This document shows, one piece after another, positions 8,824 to 57,533 of a DNA stretch of 64,000 nucleotides (position 1 is its first letter; every line of letters starts with the position of its first letter). A program made the position numbers and the translations under genes. The notes beneath the pieces are model-generated. The model did no database searches, was not told the origin of the DNA, and saw only the letters and a list, made by a program, of their open reading frames with translations. The stretch is taken from positions 7,785,314 through 7,849,313 of the forward strand of contig NZ_KI421511.1 in assembly GCF_000473265.1 (NCBI RefSeq), read 5' to 3'. The stretch comes from Amycolatopsis thermoflava N1165 (GTDB taxonomy: Bacteria > Actinomycetota > Actinomycetes > Mycobacteriales > Pseudonocardiaceae).

Positions 8824-9843
8824 GTGCCGGCGCGTTCTCAGCGGGCGACGCTCGCGATGGTGGCCGAGGCCGCCGGGGTTTCGCTGCCGACGGTCTCCAA
8901 GGTGCTCAACGGCCGCGGCGACGTGGCGGCGGCGACCCGGCAGCGGGTCCAGGACGTGCTGAAGGACCTGGGTTACGTGCCCCAGCCCGGGCGGCGCACG
9001 GTCGGGCCCGCGCGCGTGGTGGACCTGGTGTTCGACGACCTGGTGAGCCCCTATTCGCTGGAGGTCCTGCGCGGGGTCACCGAGGCGGGCGCGGAAACCG
9101 GGGTGGACGTCGTGGTCGGGCGCCTGCCGGAGTCCGACGACGACGACTGGGCGCGGCGCCTGAGCCTGGCCGGCCGCGAAGGGCTGATCGTGGTCACCTC
9201 CGAGCTGACCCGCGCACAGGTCGAGGGCTTCGCGCGGGCCGGGCTGCCGCTCGTGGTGATCGACCCGCTGAACCTGCCGCGCGTCGAGGTGACCAGCGTC
9301 GGCGCCACCAACTGGAACGGCGGGGTGTCCGCCACCGAACACCTGTTGCAGCTGGGCCACCGGCGCATCGCCTACGCCGGCGGGCCGGTGCAGGCCTCCT
9401 GCAGCCAGGCCCGCCAGCACGGCTATCGCGCGGCGCTGGAGAACGCCGGCGTGACCGTCGACCCGCGGCTGATCCTGCACGGCGCCTTCGGCTACCCGGA
9501 CGGACTGGAGATGGGCGGGCGGCTGCTCGACCTGCCGGAGCCGCCGACCGCCGTGTTCGCGGCCAGCGACGCGACCGCGCTGGGCGTGATGGAAGCCGCC
9601 CGGCGGCGGGGACTGCGCGTGCCCGAGGACCTGTCGGTCGTCGGGTTCGACGACACCATGCTCGCCGAGCTGGCCACGCCCGCGCTGACCACCGTGCGGC
9701 AGCCGTTGCAGGACATGGGCCGCGTCGCGCTGCGCACGCTGATGCGGCTCGCTGCCGGCGAAACCCTCGACTCCCACCACGTGGAGCTGGCCACCAACCT
9801 GGTGGTGCGCGATTCGACGACGAACCTGCGAGGAGCACCATGA
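8824..9843 (+). CDS. LacI-family transcriptional regulator
   Basis: A 339-residue repressor. The N-terminal helix-turn-helix (TLAMVAEAAGVSLPTVSKVLNG) is followed by a hinge and a periplasmic-binding-protein-like sensor domain ending with SVVGFDDTMLAEL and TTVRQPL, both typical. The GTG at 8824 was preferred over a TTG at 8812 because GGAGGG lies at 8814-8819. The stop overlaps the ATG of the glucosidase gene (ATGA). It is divergent from the sugar importer, with two near-identical palindromes in between, so it most likely represses both units and releases on binding the imported sugar or its product. Confidence 0.92.
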   Translation: MPARSQRATLAMVAEAAGVSLPTVSKVLNGRGDVAAATRQRVQDVLKDLGYVPQPGRRTVGPARVVDLVFDDLVSPYSLEVLRGVTEAGAETGVDVVVGRLPESDDDDWARRLSLAGREGLIVVTSELTRAQVEGFARAGLPLVVIDPLNLPRVEVTSVGATNWNGGVSATEHLLQLGHRRIAYAGGPVQASCSQARQHGYRAALENAGVTVDPRLILHGAFGYPDGLEMGGRLLDLPEPPTAVFAASDATALGVMEAARRRGLRVPEDLSVVGFDDTMLAELATPALTTVRQPLQDMGRVALRTLMRLAAGETLDSHHVELATNLVVRDSTTNLRGAP

Positions 9844-20419: not shown

Positions 20420-23400
20420 GTGTCGAACGATTCCTTCGTCCACCTGCACGTGCACACCGAGTACTCGATGCTCGACGGTGCGGCGAAGATCGCCCCGCTG
20501 TTCGCCGAGGCGAGTCGTCTCGGCATGCCCGCGGTCGGGATGACCGACCACGGCAACATGTACGGGGCGGACGAGTTCTACCAGCAGTCGCGCAAGGCCG
20601 GGCTCAAGCCGATCATCGGGATCGAGGCCTACATCGCGCCGGAGTCGCGGTTCACCAAGAAGCCGATCTTCTGGGGGCAGGCCTCGCAGCGGGGCTCGGA
20701 CGAGTTCGGTGAGGGCGGTGACGTCTCCGGTGGTGGTGCGTACACGCACATGACGATGCTGGCGGAGAACGCGACGGGGTTGCGCAACCTGTTCAAGCTG
20801 TCGTCGCTGGCGAGCATTCAGGGCTACTACCGCAAGCCGCGGATGGACCGGGAGCTGATCGCGGAGAACGCCGCCGGCATCATCGCCACCACCGGCTGCC
20901 CGTCGGGTGAGGTGCAGACCCGGTTGCGGCTGGGGCAGAAGCAGGAGGCCATCCAGGCCGCCTCGGATTACAAGGACATCTTCGGGGCGGACAACTTCTT
21001 CCTGGAGCTGATGGACCACGGCCTGCCCATCGAGCGGTCGGTGCGCGAGGGCCTGCTGGAGATCGGCAAGCTGCTCGACCTCAAACCGCTGGCCACCAAC
21101 GACTCGCACTACGTCACCAAGGACCAGGCCGACTCGCACTCGGCGTTGCTGTGCGTGCAGTCGGGCAAGACGCTCAACGACCCGAACCGGTTCAAGTTCG
21201 ACGGCGACGGCTACTACCTGAAATCGGCCGCCGAGATGCGCGAGTACTGGGACACCGAGGTCCCCGGCGCCGCCGACTCCACCCTGCTCATCGCCGAACG
21301 CGTCCAGTCCTACGAAGACGTCTACACCCACAAGGACCGCATGCCCGTCTTCGAGGTGCCCGAAGGGCACGACGAGGCGTCCTGGCTGCGCGCCGAGGTC
21401 GACCGCGGCCTGGCGTGGCGGTTCCCGGAGGGCGCGCCCGAGGGCTACCGCGAGCGGCTCGACATGGAGCTCGAGGTCATCATCGGGAAGGGCTTCCCGG
21501 CCTACTTCCTCGTCGTCGCCGACCTCATCAACTACGCCCGCAAGGTCGGCATCCGCGTCGGCCCCGGCCGTGGTTCGGCCGCGGGTTCGCTGGTCGCCTA
21601 CGTCCTGGGCATCACGAACCTGGACCCGATCCCGCAGAAGCTGCTGTTCGAGCGGTTCCTCAACCCCGAGCGCGTGTCGATGCCCGATATCGACATCGAC
21701 TTCGACGACCGCCGCCGCGGCGAGATGATCCGCTACGCCACCGAGAAGTACGGCGCGGACAAGGTGGCCCAGGTCATCACCTTCGGCACCATCAAGACCA
21801 AGGCGGCGATCAAGGACTCGGCGCGCGTGCACTTCGGCCAGCCGGGTTACGCGATCGCGGACAAGATCTCCAAGGCGCTGCCGCCGCCGATCATGGCGAA
21901 GGACATTCCGCTGTCGGGCATCGTGGACCCGCAGCACGAGCGCTACGGCGAGGCGGCCGAGGTCCGCACGCTGATCGAGACCGACGAAGAGGTCTCCACG
22001 ATCTTCAACACCGCCCGCGGCCTGGAGGGCCTGATCCGCAACGCGGGCGTGCACGCCTGCGCGGTCATCATGTCCAGCGAACCGCTGATGGACGCCATCC
22101 CGCTCTGGCAGCGCGACGACGGGTCGATCATCACCGGGTGGGACTACCCGTCCTGCGAAGCCATCGGCCTGTTGAAGATGGACTTCCTCGGCCTGCGCAA
22201 CCTCACCGTCATCGGTGACGCCATCGACAACATCAAGGCCAACCGCGGCATCGACATCGACCTCGACACCCTGGGCGTCGACGACCCGGAGACCTACAAG
22301 CTGCTGTCCCGCGGGGACACGCTCGGCGTGTTCCAGCTGGACGGCGGCCCGATGCGGGACCTGCTGCGCCGCATGCAGCCGACGGTGTTCGACGACATCG
22401 TCGCGGTCGGCGCGCTGTACCGGCCCGGTCCGATGGGCATGAACGCCCACAACGACTACGCCGACCGGAAGAACAACCGGCAGCAGGTCAAGCCGATCCA
22501 CCCCGAGCTGGAAGAGCCCCTGAAGGAGATCCTGGCCGACACGTACGGCCTGATCGTCTATCAGGAGCAGATCATGCACATCGCGCAGAAGGTCGCCGGC
22601 TACTCGATGGGCCGAGCGGATGTGCTGCGCCGCGCGATGGGCAAGAAGAAGAAGGAGGTCCTCGACAAGGAGTTCGAGGGCTTCCACGCCGGGATGAAGG
22701 AGAACGGCTTCTCCGACGAGGCCATCCAGGCGCTGTGGGACACGATCCTCCCGTTCGCCGGGTACGCGTTCAACAAGAGCCACGCGGCCGCCTACGGCCT
22801 GGTGTCGTACTGGACGGCGTACCTGAAGGCGAACTACACCGCGGAGTACATGGCCGCGCTGCTCACCTCGGTGGGTGACAACAAGGACAAGTCCGCGGTC
22901 TACCTGTCCGAGTGCCGCCGCCTCGGCATCAAGGTGCTGCCCCCGGACGTCAACGAATCCGGCCAGCGCTTCGCCGCGGTCGGCGACGACATCCGCTTCG
23001 GCATGGGCGCCGTCCGCAACGTCGGCGCCAACGTGGTGGAGTCGATCATCAAGACCCGCCAGGAGAAGGGCAAGTACTCCTCCTTCACCGACTTCCTCGA
23101 CAAGTCCGAGCTGGTGGCCTGCAACAAGCGGGTCATCGAATCGCTGATCAAGGCCGGCGCCTTCGACAGCCTCGGCAACACGCGCCTGTCGATGATCCAG
23201 GTGCACGAGGACGCGGTCGACGCGGTGGTGCCGCTCAAGCGCCAGGAGGCGATGGGCCAGTTCGACCTGTTCGGGGCGTTCGGCGGGGACGGCGACGCGG
23301 CCGAGCCCGCACCCTCGTCGTCGCCGCTGGCGCACCTGAAGTTCGGCGACGAGGAGTGGCCGCGCAAACAGCTGCTGGCCTACGAGCGGGAAATGCTGGG

Positions 23401-23995
23401 CCTGTACGTGTCCGCGCACCCGCTGGACGGCGCCGAACGGATCCTGCGCAAACACGCGCCGCGCCCGATCGCCGCGATCCTGGACAACCCGCCCAAGGAA
23501 GGCGAGCTGGTCATCTCCGGCCTGATCACCTCGCTCGAACGGCGGGTCAACAAAAAGGGCGAACCCTGGGCCATCTGCACGGTCGAGGACATGGACGCCT
23601 CGCTCGAGGTGCTGTTCTTCCCCAAGTCCTACGCCCTGTTCCAGGCCGACCTCATCGAGGACAACGCCGTCCTGGTCAAAGGCCGCGTCAACTGGCGCGA
23701 AGACAAGATGTCCGTCTTCGGCGGCGGCCTGGTACCGCTGGACCTGTCGGAAATCGGCAACGGCGACGACGAGCCCCCGCTCGTGCTGCGCTGCACGGCG
23801 GAGCGCCTGGACAAGAGCGTGGTCGGCGAGTTGAAGTCCACGCTGCTCGCCCACCGCGGTGACACCCCGGTCCGCTTGAAGCTGGTAGGCAAACAACGCG
23901 AGACGACCTTCGCGCTGTACGACTACCCGGTCAAGGTGAGCTCCATGCTGATGGGTGAACTGAAAGGCATCCCCGGCATCACCGCCGGCACCTAA
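20420..23995 (+). CDS. dnaE: DNA polymerase III alpha subunit
   Basis: A 1191-residue replicative polymerase of the DnaE1 type. The PHP domain ([13 protein letters not shown] at residues 8-20, MTDHGNMYG) retains the metal-binding His residues and could proofread, as known for actinobacterial DnaE1. The palm holds [15 protein letters not shown] and the catalytic aspartates of PDIDIDF near 422-428. The finger region ([18 protein letters not shown]), the helix-hairpin-helix and the OB-fold [19 protein letters not shown] follow, and a QFDLFG beta-clamp-type motif is present. The GTG start at 20420 has GGGGAGG nine bases upstream. A TAGGCT -10 lies at 20365-20370. It stands alone as a transcription unit. 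Confidence 0.98.
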
Positions 23996-24078
23996 ACAGC
24001 AGAACCAACGGACACCCGGCGACGAAAGCCGGCCACCTCCGAGCCAGCCCCCTCCTGCAACCCGATCCCCAGCCAAAT

Positions 24079-24140
24079 CGGTTGCCGAGCCACCGGGTCA
24101 AGGCACGCTTTCCCGCCTTGACGCGGTGTCTCGGCAACCG
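24079..24140. repeat. 26-bp inverted repeat forming a large hairpin
   Basis: The arms at 24079-24104 and 24115-24140 are reverse complements over 26 bases with two mismatches; the loop is ten bases. Each arm begins or ends with CGGTTGCCGAG or its complement. It lies 84 bases after dnaE and could end its transcript, although there is no following T run. The length is far beyond a usual terminator. The rest of 23996-24078 shows nothing clear. Confidence 0.85.
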
Positions 24141-24168
24141 AACACTGAAAGATCGGGTTCGGGAGGGG

Positions 24169-24206
24169 CTCAATCGGGGCGTAGCGAAGCGAAGCCGGCG
24201 ATTGAG
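24169..24206. repeat. second inverted repeat of the post-dnaE element
   Basis: CTCAATCG (24169-24176) and CGATTGAG (24199-24206) flank a 22-base stretch containing GCGAAGCGAAGC. It sits 28 bases after the large hairpin and may be part of one interspersed repeat element. The remaining 24207-24265 leads to the exporter start. Confidence 0.55.
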
Positions 24207-24265
24207 AAACCCGCGTAGCGCCGCCAGACCGCGCGCAACCCGGACCCAAAGGTCACCATGGATGA

Positions 24266-25735
24266 GTGACCCTCACCCAGCAACAGGACCCACGCCGCTG
24301 GAAAGCCCTGGCCGTGACCCTCACCGCGGGTTTCATGGGCCTGCTGGACGTCAGCATCGTGAACGTGGCGCTGCCGTCCATCCAGAAGGGGATCGGTGGC
24401 GACGCCGGCACCGCGCAGTGGGTCGTCTCGGGCTACGCGCTCACCTTCGGCCTGGTCCTCGTCTCGGGTGGGCGTCTGGGCGACGCGCTGGGCAGGCGCC
24501 GGATGTTCCTCATCGCGCTGGCGGCGTTCGTGGCGATGAGCGCGTTCGCGGGTGCCGCGCCGACGGGTGAGGTGCTGGTCGTCGCGCGGTTGCTGCAGGG
24601 GTGCGCGGCCGGGTTGCTCACGCCGCAGAACACGGGGCTGATCCAGGACCTGTTCCGCGGCGCGGAGCGGGGCAAGGCGTTCGGCGCGTTCGGGTCGGTG
24701 GTCGGCATCTCCACGGCGGTCGGGCCGGTGCTGGGCGGTCTCATCCTCGCCGTGTTCGGTGAGGAGCAGGGCTGGCGCTGGGTGTTCTACGTGAACGTGC
24801 CGATCGGGGCGTTCGCGTTCGTCCTGGCGCTGCGGTTGCTGCCGCGTGCCGAGGGCCGTCCCGCGCGGCTGCGGTCCGAGATCGACTTCGTCGGTGTGCT
24901 GCTGCTCGGGCTCGCCGTGCTGGGGGTGCTGCTGCCACTGGTGGAGTCCGAAGAGGACGGTGTGCGGCGGTTGTGGTGGTTGTTCCCGGTCGCGGCCGTG
25001 TTCGGGTTCGCGTTCGTCCGCTGGGAGCGGCGCGTGGTGCGGCACGAGCGCACGCCGTTGATGGACGTCCGGTTGTTCACCGAAACCCCGGGCTACACCC
25101 CGGGTGCGCTGATCGGCGCGGTGTACTTCTGCGGGTTCGCCGGGATCTGGCTGGTGTTCGCGATGTTCTTCCAGCAGGGTCTCGGTTACACGCCGCTGGA
25201 GTCCGGGCTGGCGGTGACGCCGTTCGCGGTGGGGGCGGCGGTTTCCGCGGCGGTGGCGGGGCGGCTCGTCGCGCGGTGGGGGCGGGGCCTCACGGTCACC
25301 GGCCTCTCGCTGGTGGCGTTGGGGCTGGGTGTCGTCGCGTTGCTGGCGTGGCTCGCGCCGGGGCAGGACCTCGGTCTGGTGGTCGCGTTGCCCCTGCTGG
25401 TGGCCGGGATCGGCGGTGGCATGGTGATTTCGCCCAACACGACGCTGACGCTGGAGTGTGTGCCGACCCGGATGGCCGGCGTCGCCGGGGGAGCGTTGCA
25501 GACCGGGCAGCGGATCGGCACTGCGATCGGCACCGCGGTGCTCGCGTCGGTGTTCCGGGCGGTCCTCCCGGCGTCCGGCAACGACTTCCCGGCCGCGCTC
25601 GCCGTCTCGCTGCTGTGTGCTGCCGGTTTTGTCCTCTTCGCGCTGGGGCTCGGGATCGCCGAACTCCGCGCCCGGCGAGCACGCGCCTCTAACGATCAAC
25701 TACTCAGCGCCACAACTGCTGCTCCATATGAGTGA
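24266..25735 (+). CDS. MFS transporter, DHA2 (EmrB/QacA) drug exporter
   Basis: A 489-residue membrane protein with about fourteen hydrophobic helices. Family markers are GFMGLLDVSIVNVALPSI in helix 1 (motif D1), GGRLGDALGRRRMF in loop 2-3 (motif A) and VGPVLGGLI in helix 5 (motif C of antiporters). It would export drugs or metabolites using the proton gradient. The GTG at 24266 is the only reasonable start in frame; ATGs at 24258 and 24262 lie in other frames and could give an overlapping short reading frame. No local regulator is seen. Confidence 0.9.
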   Translation: MTLTQQQDPRRWKALAVTLTAGFMGLLDVSIVNVALPSIQKGIGGDAGTAQWVVSGYALTFGLVLVSGGRLGDALGRRRMFLIALAAFVAMSAFAGAAPTGEVLVVARLLQGCAAGLLTPQNTGLIQDLFRGAERGKAFGAFGSVVGISTAVGPVLGGLILAVFGEEQGWRWVFYVNVPIGAFAFVLALRLLPRAEGRPARLRSEIDFVGVLLLGLAVLGVLLPLVESEEDGVRRLWWLFPVAAVFGFAFVRWERRVVRHERTPLMDVRLFTETPGYTPGALIGAVYFCGFAGIWLVFAMFFQQGLGYTPLESGLAVTPFAVGAAVSAAVAGRLVARWGRGLTVTGLSLVALGLGVVALLAWLAPGQDLGLVVALPLLVAGIGGGMVISPNTTLTLECVPTRMAGVAGGALQTGQRIGTAIGTAVLASVFRAVLPASGNDFPAALAVSLLCAAGFVLFALGLGIAELRARRARASNDQLLSATTAAPYE

Positions 25736-41008: not shown

Positions 41009-42079
41009 TCAGCCGCGCAGCGCCCGCACGAGCCCGTCGAAACCCTCCCGCGTGGACAGTGCGGCGAGCCCGGCGCGCAGGAACGGCCCCTGGTTGGCGA
41101 AATCCGCGTCGGCCACGTCGTCGAGCAGGAGCGCGAGGCTCGCGGCGCGTCCGTCCGGCCACCGCACGGTCATCCCGGTGGCCAGCACTCGCGGCAGGCT
41201 GCCGCCCTTGAACGCGACCGCGGCGGCGCCGGGCGGGACGAGCGCGGCGAACGGCTCTTCCAGGTGGCGCCGCACGACGGTCTCGCCGAAGCGGCCGGCC
41301 GCGAGCGCCCGGTGCATCGCGAACAGCCCGGCCGCGCTCCCACGCCCGTGCCCGCGCGTCCAGGCCACCTGGGCCTCGGCGCCCGGCGGGGTCTGGAAGC
41401 GGGCGAGCACCTCGTCCCGGAACGCCGGCTCGGTGGCGAACCGGCGCGCCAGCCGGTCGCCCGCGCCGGGCCGCAGCGCGGGGGAGCGCGGGAGGAACTC
41501 GGGGAACAGCAGCAGGAGCACCTCGCCGCAGAACGACCGGAGGTCGGGCCGGAGCCAGCCGCCGCGGGCGGCCGCCGCGGTCAGGGCCTGGTCGCCGAGG
41601 CGGTGGCGCAGGTAGTCGGCCGCGGAGTTGTCGCTGAAGACGATCATCGCGCGCGCCAGCCGATCCAGCGGGACCGTCGCGTCCGGGGCGAGCGCGTTGC
41701 CCCGGTCGGTGTGCGGGATGCCGAGTTCCTGGAGCGCGAACAGGTGCGCGCCGCCGTCGCCGCCGAACGGGTAGAACGCCTCCCAGTCGCCGAGCCGCAC
41801 CGGCTCGTCCGGGTCCAGACCGCGCTCGACCGCGGTGGCGTAGGCGGCGAGGTGCACGACCTTGATCGTGGACGCCAGGATCTGCGGGGCGTGCGGCCGG
41901 TGCGCCACCCGGCGTCCGTCGGCGTCCACGGCCAGCGCGCCGACCCGGTCGCGGTGCCGGGCGATCCAGTCGAACCAGCCCTGCGGGGTGGACGTGTCGG
42001 CGACCGCGGTCGCGGGCACGGCGAGCGTGGCCACGCCGGCGAGCGCCGCGGAGCCGAGCAGAGTGCGCCGGGAAAGCAC
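41009..42079 (-). CDS. Tat-exported class A beta-lactamase-like protein
   Basis: A 356-residue serine hydrolase. SRRTLLGSAALAG at the start is a twin-arginine signal with cleavage near AVA. The active-site Ser is in STIK, the second motif is SDN and the third is KGG, all with normal order. This matches actinomycete class A beta-lactamases, which open the beta-lactam ring outside the cell. A weak or PBP-like role cannot be excluded because the Glu166-type loop cannot be placed with certainty. The GTG start at 42079 has GGAGGAGG upstream. A 16-bp palindrome lies 21 bases upstream of the start. Confidence 0.87.
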   Translation of the reverse strand: MLSRRTLLGSAALAGVATLAVPATAVADTSTPQGWFDWIARHRDRVGALAVDADGRRVAHRPHAPQILASTIKVVHLAAYATAVERGLDPDEPVRLGDWEAFYPFGGDGGAHLFALQELGIPHTDRGNALAPDATVPLDRLARAMIVFSDNSAADYLRHRLGDQALTAAAARGGWLRPDLRSFCGEVLLLLFPEFLPRSPALRPGAGDRLARRFATEPAFRDEVLARFQTPPGAEAQVAWTRGHGRGSAAGLFAMHRALAAGRFGETVVRRHLEEPFAALVPPGAAAVAFKGGSLPRVLATGMTVRWPDGRAASLALLLDDVADADFANQGPFLRAGLAALSTREGFDGLVRALRG

Positions 42080-51545: not shown

Positions 51546-51557
51546 TCGCTTCGACGT

Positions 51558-51591
51558 GAAGGGCCACCCCGTTCCGGCTGGGTGGCCCTTC
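51558..51591 (+). terminator. ilvE terminator hairpin
   Basis: GAAGGGCCACCC (51558-51569) pairs perfectly with GGGTGGCCCTTC (51580-51591) across a ten-base loop, 12 bases after the ilvE stop. It is followed by a GTCGTTGTT stretch. Confidence 0.75.
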
Positions 51592-51604
51592 GTCGTTGTT
51601 GAGG

Positions 51605-52099
51605 AGGCGCGGGCGCGCCGGATGAACTCCAGCCGCTCCGACGACGGGTGCCGTGCTCACGCTGGATCCGCTCGCTGTTGTCCGCCTGCATGCGGTGGAG
51701 CGAGTCCCGCAGCCGGTGTCGCCACCGTGGAAAGCCTCCAGCAGGCGCATCCACTCGGCCGCGACCTTCCGCCCCTCCGCGGAAGCCGGGGGCGACCCCG
51801 GTCTCGACGGCCCGCTGCACGCGGGGGATCAGGTCCTGCCACCTCCGCTGGACGTCCTCCTGCTCGCCGAGCCGCGATCGGCGCTCGGCCAGCTCCGCCG
51901 GCTGGGTTTCGCTGAAGGACTGCTTCACCGACTCGTCCACCGCGGTCACCTCCCGGATCAGAGCCAGGCAGCCGGTGACGCCTGCCGGTCCGTCGACGGC
52001 CGCCAGCATCCTGGTGAGGTGCGCCCGGAGCGTGCGCATCGCGCCAGCTCGCCGACCTTGGAGAACCTGCCGTTCACCCACTTCCCCCAGCGCCTTTGC
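51605..52099 (-). pseudogene. decayed MerR/TipA-type regulator
   Basis: Reading leftward from about 52099, one frame gives FSKVGELAR, like the start of a MerR helix-turn-helix. A second frame then gives LRAHLTRMLAAVD and SFSETQPAELAERR with RRWQDLIPRVQRAVETG, which resemble the effector domain of TipA-like MerR proteins. Further shifts give KVAAEWMRLLEAFHGGD, then LRDSLHRMQADNSERIQREHG, and finally SSERLEFIRRARASS, the usual end of that domain. The order is right but at least three frame changes and a missing DNA-binding middle are needed. It therefore looks like a dead gene between ilvE and cobT rather than a coding one. Confidence 0.6.
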
Positions 52100-52139
52100 G
52101 CCGATGTGGACGACGCTGGGACCTGACGTCACGTGAGGA

Positions 52140-56815: not shown

Positions 56816-56949
56816 CCGGGCCCGCGGGCCTGGTCGGCCGAACGGCCACCCACCGCGGACCGCACCAGCCGGCGGTTCGATGGCGCAGGCCGCCCAGCAC
56901 GAACTCGATCGCTGCCCGGCAGGCCCACCCGCCTGCCGTGGGCGCCCCC

Positions 56950-57360
56950 GGTGTGGGGTGACGTGGCAGGGTTTGGCGCCGGGCTGTCTGGCAGCGCAGC
57001 CTGGGTTGCCGTGGGTGCCCCCCGGTGTGGGGTGACGTGGCAGGGTTTGGCGCCGGGCTGTCTGGCAGCGCAGGCCGGGTTGCCGTGGGTGCCCCCCGGT
57101 GTGGGGTGACGTGGCAGGGGCTGGCGCCGGGCTGTCTGGCAGCGCGGCCTGGGTTGCCGTGGGTCCCCCCGGCGCGCGGTGACGCGGCACGGTTTGGCGC
57201 CGCGCTGTCTGGCAGCGCAGGCCGGGTTGCCGTGGGCGCCCTGCGGTGTGGGGTGACGTGGCAGGGTCTGGCGCCGCGCTGTCCGGCAGCACAGCCTGCG
57301 TTGCCGTAGGTGCAACCCGGCGCGGGGCGACGCGGCACGGTCTGGCGCCGCGCTGTCCGT
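56950..57360. repeat. 74-bp tandem repeat, about 5.5 copies
   Basis: Copies start at about 56950, 57024, 57098, 57171, 57245 and 57319, a steady 73-74 base step. The unit runs GGTGTGGGGTGACGTGGCAG, then TTTGGCGCCGGGCTGTCTGG, then CAGCGCAGCCTGGGTTGCCG and a short C-rich tail. The first three copies are nearly identical and the later ones drift. 74 is not a multiple of three, so reading frames rotate through the copies. Long open frames on both strands come only from the lack of stops in GC-rich DNA. Bases 56816-56949 and 57361-57490 hold nothing else I can name. Confidence 0.9.
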
Positions 57361-57490
57361 CTGACTCGCAATGGCCGCAAGCGGCGCCAAGCAGCACAAC
57401 TCGCCGGCCGCCGCCCGCCACCCGCCCGGCGGCCGGGTGGCGCAGCACGATCAAGCCTCCGCGCTGCTTGCCCGGCCAGCCAACAAAAAA

Positions 57491-57518
57491 CGGGCCGCGG
57501 CCCTCCGGCCGCGGCCCG
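57491..57518 (-). terminator. asnB terminator hairpin
   Basis: CGGGCCGCGGCC (57491-57502) pairs perfectly with GGCCGCGGCCCG (57507-57518) across four bases. A run of six A before it gives a T run at the end of the leftward asnB transcript. Confidence 0.9.
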
Positions 57519-57533
57519 TCCGACGTTCGCGCC

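Follow-up and report, generated by a model that had tools for sequence, protein, structure and literature searches.

The stretch directly past the stop codon of dnaE in Amycolatopsis thermoflava N1165 is best read, with slightly better than even confidence, as one member of a dispersed, REP/ERIC-like family of 3′-UTR hairpins that occurs mainly in Pseudonocardiaceae, exchanges stem tips between its copies and putatively acts at transcript ends. Among bacteria, long palindromic repeats between genes are known chiefly from Gram-negative species, and there is no agreement on their role. The actinomycete family combines four properties, namely gene-end positions common to species, a one-strand bias in RNA-type pairing, conservation of the loop, and a measurable exchange of tips among dozens of dispersed sites. 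Its natural variants, including loop types, several stem tips and lost hairpins at orthologous sites, offer direct tests of a transcript-end function and of how fast short-tract gene conversion proceeds. Among the papers listed in searches of open-licence literature, none was recognised as a description of this repeat.

The window analysed was the whole stretch of 64,000 nucleotides, and the features of the dnaE site are listed in Table 1. The large hairpin of the original prediction was found with arms of 27 nt, two mismatches and a 10-nt loop at 24105-24114, and the second 8-bp inverted repeat reported behind it was also present, with CTCAATCG (24169-24176) facing CGATTGAG (24199-24206) and GGGCGTAGCGAAGCGAAGCCGG in between. 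When the 64-kb window was scanned for 26-nt arms with no more than two mismatches and loops of 3-20, this place alone was returned, in two overlapping registers. The arms form the inner part of a larger structure, surrounded by an outer stem, and the complete main hairpin measures 120 nt (24049-24168). Folded as RNA, positions 24026-24222 reached -111.9 kcal/mol (z = -8.0), and 0 of 200 shuffles was equally good. The reported lack of a T run was confirmed: a terminator scan, accepting loops of 3-8 only, yielded 0 terminator-like sites in 23800-24500, and no T run is found in the sequence itself. The missing T-tract indicates that the element is not a classical intrinsic terminator and that termination would need a non-classical mode or processing. 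Comparison with Rfam 15 gave nothing above gathering score in loci L102, L040 and L009, and two sub-threshold matches only in positions 23900-24400, the best being mir-592 with 26.9 of 67 bits.

Table 1 Features of the dnaE site. Edges of the family-A element are approximate and mark the points where copies stop matching.
Feature	Position	Strand	Evidence
dnaE, DNA polymerase III alpha subunit	20420..23995	+	ORF; Pfam DNA_pol3_alpha, DNA_pol3_finger, PHP
Whole family-A element	24008..24222	+	Alignment of 22 copies and match-depth profile of copies
5′ module ACCCGGCGACGAAAG, design common to families A and B	24014..24028	+	Copy alignments
Outer stem, 5′ side	24049..24067	+	RNA fold
Inner stem, 5′ arm (left arm of the original prediction)	24078..24104	+	Repeat search
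Apical core GTCAAGGCACGCTTTCCCGCCTTGAC, 26 nt, 8-bp stem and 10-nt loop	24097..24122	+	66 genome copies; conserved columns in relatives
Inner stem, 3′ arm (right arm of the original prediction)	24115..24141	+	Repeat search
Outer stem, 3′ side	24151..24168	+	RNA fold
Second small hairpin, GCGAAGCGAAGC loop, part of the family-A 3′ module	24169..24206	+	Copy alignment, RNA fold, inverted-repeat check
3′ end motif CCCGCGTAGCGCC, final conserved stretch of family A	24210..24222	+	Copy alignment
Downstream MFS transporter gene, co-directional with dnaE	24266..25735	+	ORF; Pfam MFS_1

The suspicion that the element is an interspersed repeat was borne out by the genome (G000). With up to three mismatches, 66 copies of the 26-nt apical core were counted (30 forward, 36 reverse) versus 0 for the reversed control, and the copies have a mosaic architecture. 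The element matched 57 places in a DNA search of the genome, and 17 of these matches were near full length, at 88-100% identity. A single copy with an unconserved stem, the outcome that would have refuted the original prediction, was thus not what was found. The cores were assigned to family A, the dnaE-site type (20 copies), family B (44) and others (2). The family-A unit of ~215-225 bp extends ~95 nt 5′ and ~105 nt 3′ of the core. Family B has the 5′ module and the hairpin design in common with family A; its unit of ~500 bp reaches ~370 nt 3′ of the core and contains a second long hairpin, as judged from a consensus that left out 12 of the 44 copies as truncated or interrupted. An arm of this second hairpin had 78 matches in the genome, and the repeat family is therefore mosaic.

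The copies lie on both chromosome strands in no evident order, as judged by eye, and a replication-oriented site was rejected on this ground. No core copy was found at 0.254-3.10 Mb of the main contig, and none of 20,000 random placements produced a gap this large; the gap does contain a single second-hairpin element, at 2.55 Mb. This core-free interval makes up a third of the main contig and is perhaps a younger, non-core region. Elsewhere, two family-B copies (L045 and L053, C1 near 5118950 and 6673640) apparently have at least 1.3 kb of left flank in common, representing a segmental duplication. The genome also contains a second dnaE-like copy (L257, C1 near 3241837), 88.8% identical over at least 2.2 kb.

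The genetic context analysis placed the element between genes, mostly at their 3′ ends. In the predictions of a home-made gene caller based on codon usage, none of the 66 cores is spanned by a gene, spanning of the core being the definition of a position inside a gene. Convergent genes flank 43 of the 66 copies, tandem genes in the two orientations flank 15 and 7, and one copy is divergent. For comparison, 339 neighbouring gene pairs from 20 stretches of 20 kb each (400 kb) comprised 59 convergent (17%) and 53 divergent pairs, with genes under-called in three of the 20 stretches (L334, 1% coding; L327, 41%; L335, 63%). Against these baseline pairs, the copies showed a convergent excess (p = 1e-17) and a divergent shortage (p = 3e-4). 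Across the loci of all genomes (n = 208, with orthologues entered more than once, and L233-L262 and copies near locus ends left out), 113 were convergent, 42 plus-plus, 25 minus-minus, 5 divergent and 23 incomplete, with 0 inside a gene. At the approximate edges used here, 13 of 15 convergent family-A copies end at most 15 nt from the opposing stop codon. The orientation bias of tandem copies is weak (15 versus 7 in G000, 42 versus 25 over all genomes). The window itself has three long spacers between called convergent genes, at 961-1740 (780 nt), 51546-52139 (594 nt) and 56816-57533 (718 nt). Two ARAGORN calls inside called genes (9296-9381 and 41756-41849), the first with its anticodon unresolved and the second a tRNA-Val, are probably spurious.

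Many of these positions are common to species. When flanks had to match over at least 300 bp, an occupied orthologue in G000 was found for 24 of the 30 copies tested in the relative G146 (out of 32) and for 22 of the 28 distinct copies tested in G162 (out of 46), and such sites were presumably inherited vertically. The dnaE site was compared over 390 nt each in 14 of the 19 genomes of the genus. It is occupied in G146, G162 and G113 with a different compensated tip, CAGCGGG/GCCGCTT instead of the CCACCGG/GCGGTGT of G000, and G146 and G113 have another loop form as well. The site in G209 and G026 carries a similar lower stem topped by a long GCGAAGC-type loop. In G130 the greater part of the hairpin has been deleted, and G187 lacks it; no element was seen at this site in G064, G175, G092, G263 and G242, nor in the compared part of G257. 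The absence of copies from sites in some relatives indicates that no single copy is essential.

The part of the original prediction that likened the element to REP/BIME or MITE sequences was not supported as far as membership in these families goes. The many dispersed extragenic palindromic copies are as expected of REP/BIME sequences, but the 120-nt main hairpin and the ~215-500 bp unit far exceed the 20-40 bp of a REP unit. REP hairpins carry a GTAG or CGTC tag at their foot; here GTAG was seen by eye in the 3′ module at 24181 and 24215 but not at the foot of the main hairpin. A search of G000 for the Y1 transposase family (PF01797) gave 0 matches, the same model matching 5 of 14 control genomes; RAYTs presumably match this model, and a REP/RAYT origin was rejected on the negative search. 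A recurrent neighbour gene acting as mobiliser was likewise rejected, with no candidate seen by eye in the 15 largest neighbour-protein clusters, whose members appear to be orthologues and widespread families, MFS transporters among them. No target-site duplication was found at two sites occupied in G146 and unoccupied in G000, where the whole spacer differs: at the convergent one, the same flanks enclose 31 unrelated bases in G000, and G113 and G162 have other, longer spacers, while the second measures 320 bases in G146 versus 63 in G000.

These data bear on the proposal that the element is a non-autonomous, REP- or MITE-like mobile element, in which the hairpin would serve as substrate of a putative transposase, perhaps on single-stranded DNA, and the 3′-end location would reflect tolerated insertions. 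Discrete edges and subfamilies, the lack of an occupied G000 orthologue for 6 of 30 G146 and 6 of 28 G162 copies, and an inverted element at one intergenic site common to G209 and G000 (L352 and L024, opposite in orientation) agree with it, as do single copies elsewhere near mobile-type genes (an AAA-domain gene at L322 of G349 and an integrase-core gene at L133 of a Bacillota MAG); a single-strand substrate would also yield the G-U bias described below. We nevertheless consider this explanation unlikely, given that most compared positions are common to species, that neither a Y1 transposase family nor a candidate mobiliser was found in the searches above, and that the two unoccupied counterparts differ in their spacer instead of presenting a clean insertion with duplication. 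Past mobility of the element is likely. Transposase genes (HTH_Tnp_1; DUF4096, IS4/5 type) occur at L071 and L061 (C1 near 3101882 and 7161205), at the points of interruption of a family-B hairpin arm, which suggests that the repeats are targets of insertion.

A structured RNA with compensating changes, also raised in the original prediction, was supported by the pairing of the stems. In 167 distinct stems, 91% of the stem cells were paired; shuffling left 54% paired (at most 57%), and sliding the arms left 25-51%. In the RNAalifold structure, both sides had changed in 12 of the 22 predicted pairs. Because of a gap set by MAFFT, the RNAalifold run on A2 puts some of the middle stem out of register and predicts one doubtful pair; fixed-offset pair counts were used instead. 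Stem sequence differs among lineages with pairing kept, and the loop and inner stem are conserved. In 48 diverse aligned relatives, which were selected by the core, the pattern GTCAAGG.A..CTTTCC.GCCTTGAC was almost constant, as expected, and the apical core columns were mostly invariant or near-invariant. Also conserved were an AGCC motif 5′ of the inner stem and ACAAT..TCGGGG 3′ of it, the stem between the conserved motifs being variable. Two linked loop forms were distinguished in 169 stems, CACG in 107 and TACT in 56, with 6 mixed.

Pairing in intact stems is biased to one strand. After removal of 46 of 215 distinct stems with more than three hard mismatches, a filter neutral between G-U and A-C, the dnaE-reading strand contained 46 G-U versus 5 A-C pairs in the consensus of 36 stem clusters (p = 2e-9), and 21 versus 7 among variants within clusters (p = 0.013). 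The excess was smaller in unfiltered stems, with 217 G-U versus 71 A-C cells over 20 positions, or 91 versus 38 by cluster, where shuffled columns already gave 1.86:1. An alternative-loop family of G209 and G026 showed 36 G-U versus 1 A-C, counted in 21 distinct arms that come from close relatives and are not independent. The predominance of G-U over A-C on one strand of intact stems points to RNA read in the dnaE direction, and a duplex site would account for the bias less well than RNA or single-stranded DNA of one strand. Nucleoid or gyrase binding, or a replication-related role, has been proposed for some BIMEs as a DNA-level function. Such a site would be compatible with dispersed, conserved and palindromic copies and with the 2.85-Mb chromosome stretch without a core copy. 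It is nonetheless very improbable here, since the orientation along the chromosome is mixed (30 versus 36) and a site in double-stranded DNA leaves the G-U bias unexplained.

Comparison of orthologous and non-orthologous copies indicated that stem tips are exchanged between copies. Orthologous family-B tips of G000 and G162 differed by 0.097, versus a permuted mean of 0.099 (p = 0.485, 19 pairs). The closer relative G146 kept an orthologue signal, with 0.080 versus about 0.113-0.119 (permutation p = 0.034, 15 pairs). For family A, orthologues and non-orthologues differed by 0.206 (4 pairs) and 0.209 between G000 and G162, and by 0.095 (5 pairs) and 0.076 between G000 and G146. Family-A tips within G000 differed by 0.028, and family-B tips by 0.046 within G162, 0.111 within G000 and 0.108 between these two genomes, so that B copies resemble each other no more closely inside G000 than between genomes. 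From these differences, family A in G000 and family B in G162 look homogenised, and family B in G000 appears to draw on a tip pool. Hybrid tips such as CAGGCGT..ACGGCTG are also present. A gapless comparison of the far flanks was uninformative because of indels. Gene conversion is the probable route of exchange.

The alternative loop noted at the dnaE site recurs in 24 copies of G209 (one without a left arm) and 4 of G026, and was found in none of 17 of the 19 genomes of the genus. G209 also retains one standard-core copy. The sites common to G209 and G000 among the matches listed include dnaE and L360-L019, and the loops differ between the two species.

Recombination of this kind, visible in tip exchange and hybrid tips, could also be that of a neutral relic, in which template switching at imperfect palindromes together with gene conversion would restore pairing in repeats without a role. 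The loss of copies, as at the dnaE site in G130 (mostly gone) and G187 (missing), is in line with this account. However, it predicts neither the one-strand G-U bias nor a single loop across genera on unrelated stems, nor the convergent enrichment, although exclusion from genes and promoters alone would give part of the latter; we judge it rather improbable.

We favour the reading as a transcript-end hairpin, which from the positions and pairing of the copies would operate as follows. Transcription of the upstream gene would let its 3′-UTR fold into the hairpin, which would then form or protect the transcript 3′ end and limit read-through, chiefly where genes converge. A factor that binds or processes RNA may recognise the conserved loop, and compensated stem tips and loops would be swapped among copies by short gene conversions within the near-identical core. 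A more speculative and rather doubtful extension is that the 3′-UTR hairpins form a chromosome-wide set evolving as one unit. The loop would then be the recognition module for a lineage-specific RNA factor, gene conversion would spread loop and compensated tip over dozens of gene ends, and a lineage could replace the module at many sites, as may have happened in G209 with its 24 copies including the dnaE site.

The family resembles several described systems in part. REPs are described as extragenic units of 20-40 bp that lie mostly between convergent and co-directional genes and are linked to RAYTs (PMC3733652); that article mentions neither actinobacteria nor Streptomyces or Mycobacterium. 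The present element shares with REP/BIME sequences, represented by the GTAG and CGTC REPs, a high copy number, an extragenic and palindromic nature, a convergent or co-directional context and plausible transcription, and family B is BIME-like as a mosaic of several hairpin units. Beyond its greater size, it differs in the absence of a Y1 transposase family here, in the many sites common to species and in the compensated tip exchange. ERIC sequences are elements of 127 bp, for which orientation-dependent effects on mRNA stability are reported in Yersinia (PMC2229807). ERIC/IRU sequences are likewise imperfect palindromes of more than 100 bp in intergenic positions; compared by description, they are enterobacterial and are listed as having TA ends and target duplications, whereas here no duplication was found, and a superfamily of different stems has one apical core in common. 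Terminators of Bacillus cereus are described as showing compensatory stem evolution, often via G-U states (PMC5381666). Bidirectional intrinsic terminators share the hairpin between convergent genes and this mode of stem evolution, but the present family lacks a T-tract, has a much longer stem and forms a repeat family with a conserved loop. Among broader surveys, one of stem-loop families in bacterial genomes covers two mycobacteria and a corynebacterium, and a term search found no mention of Streptomyces, Saccharopolyspora or Amycolatopsis in it (PMC2267715). According to a 2026 survey, perfect inverted repeats are enriched downstream of stop codons in bacteria; a term search of it for Pseudonocard-, Amycolatopsis and Actinomycet- gave nothing (PMC13155455).

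The core was detected with at most two mismatches in 58 of 297 Pseudonocardiaceae genomes, representing 11 of 46 genera and 13 of the 19 genomes of its genus; in the rows listed, the reversed controls gave 0. A class-wide sample of 394 genomes contained it only in G000 and, as one copy, in G349 from another family. A scan of named genomes returned at least 119 stretches; the 80 titles listed were mostly Amycolatopsis, and the matches listed also included Actinokineospora, Halosaccharopolyspora and two Bacillota MAGs. Loci of Amycolatopsis thermalba and tucumanensis carry near-identical family-A copies. Viral contigs gave 0 stretches with the exact core pattern, and a phage origin was rejected accordingly. 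The single copy in G349 (L322) is one full element near an AAA-domain gene resembling a transposon ATPase. The two Bacillota MAGs (L133 6113-6138, L144 307-332) carry the 26-nt core without the long stem and have ~110 nt around the core in common. The core in L133 lies past the end of an integrase-core gene, which we take to be of the IS3 type.
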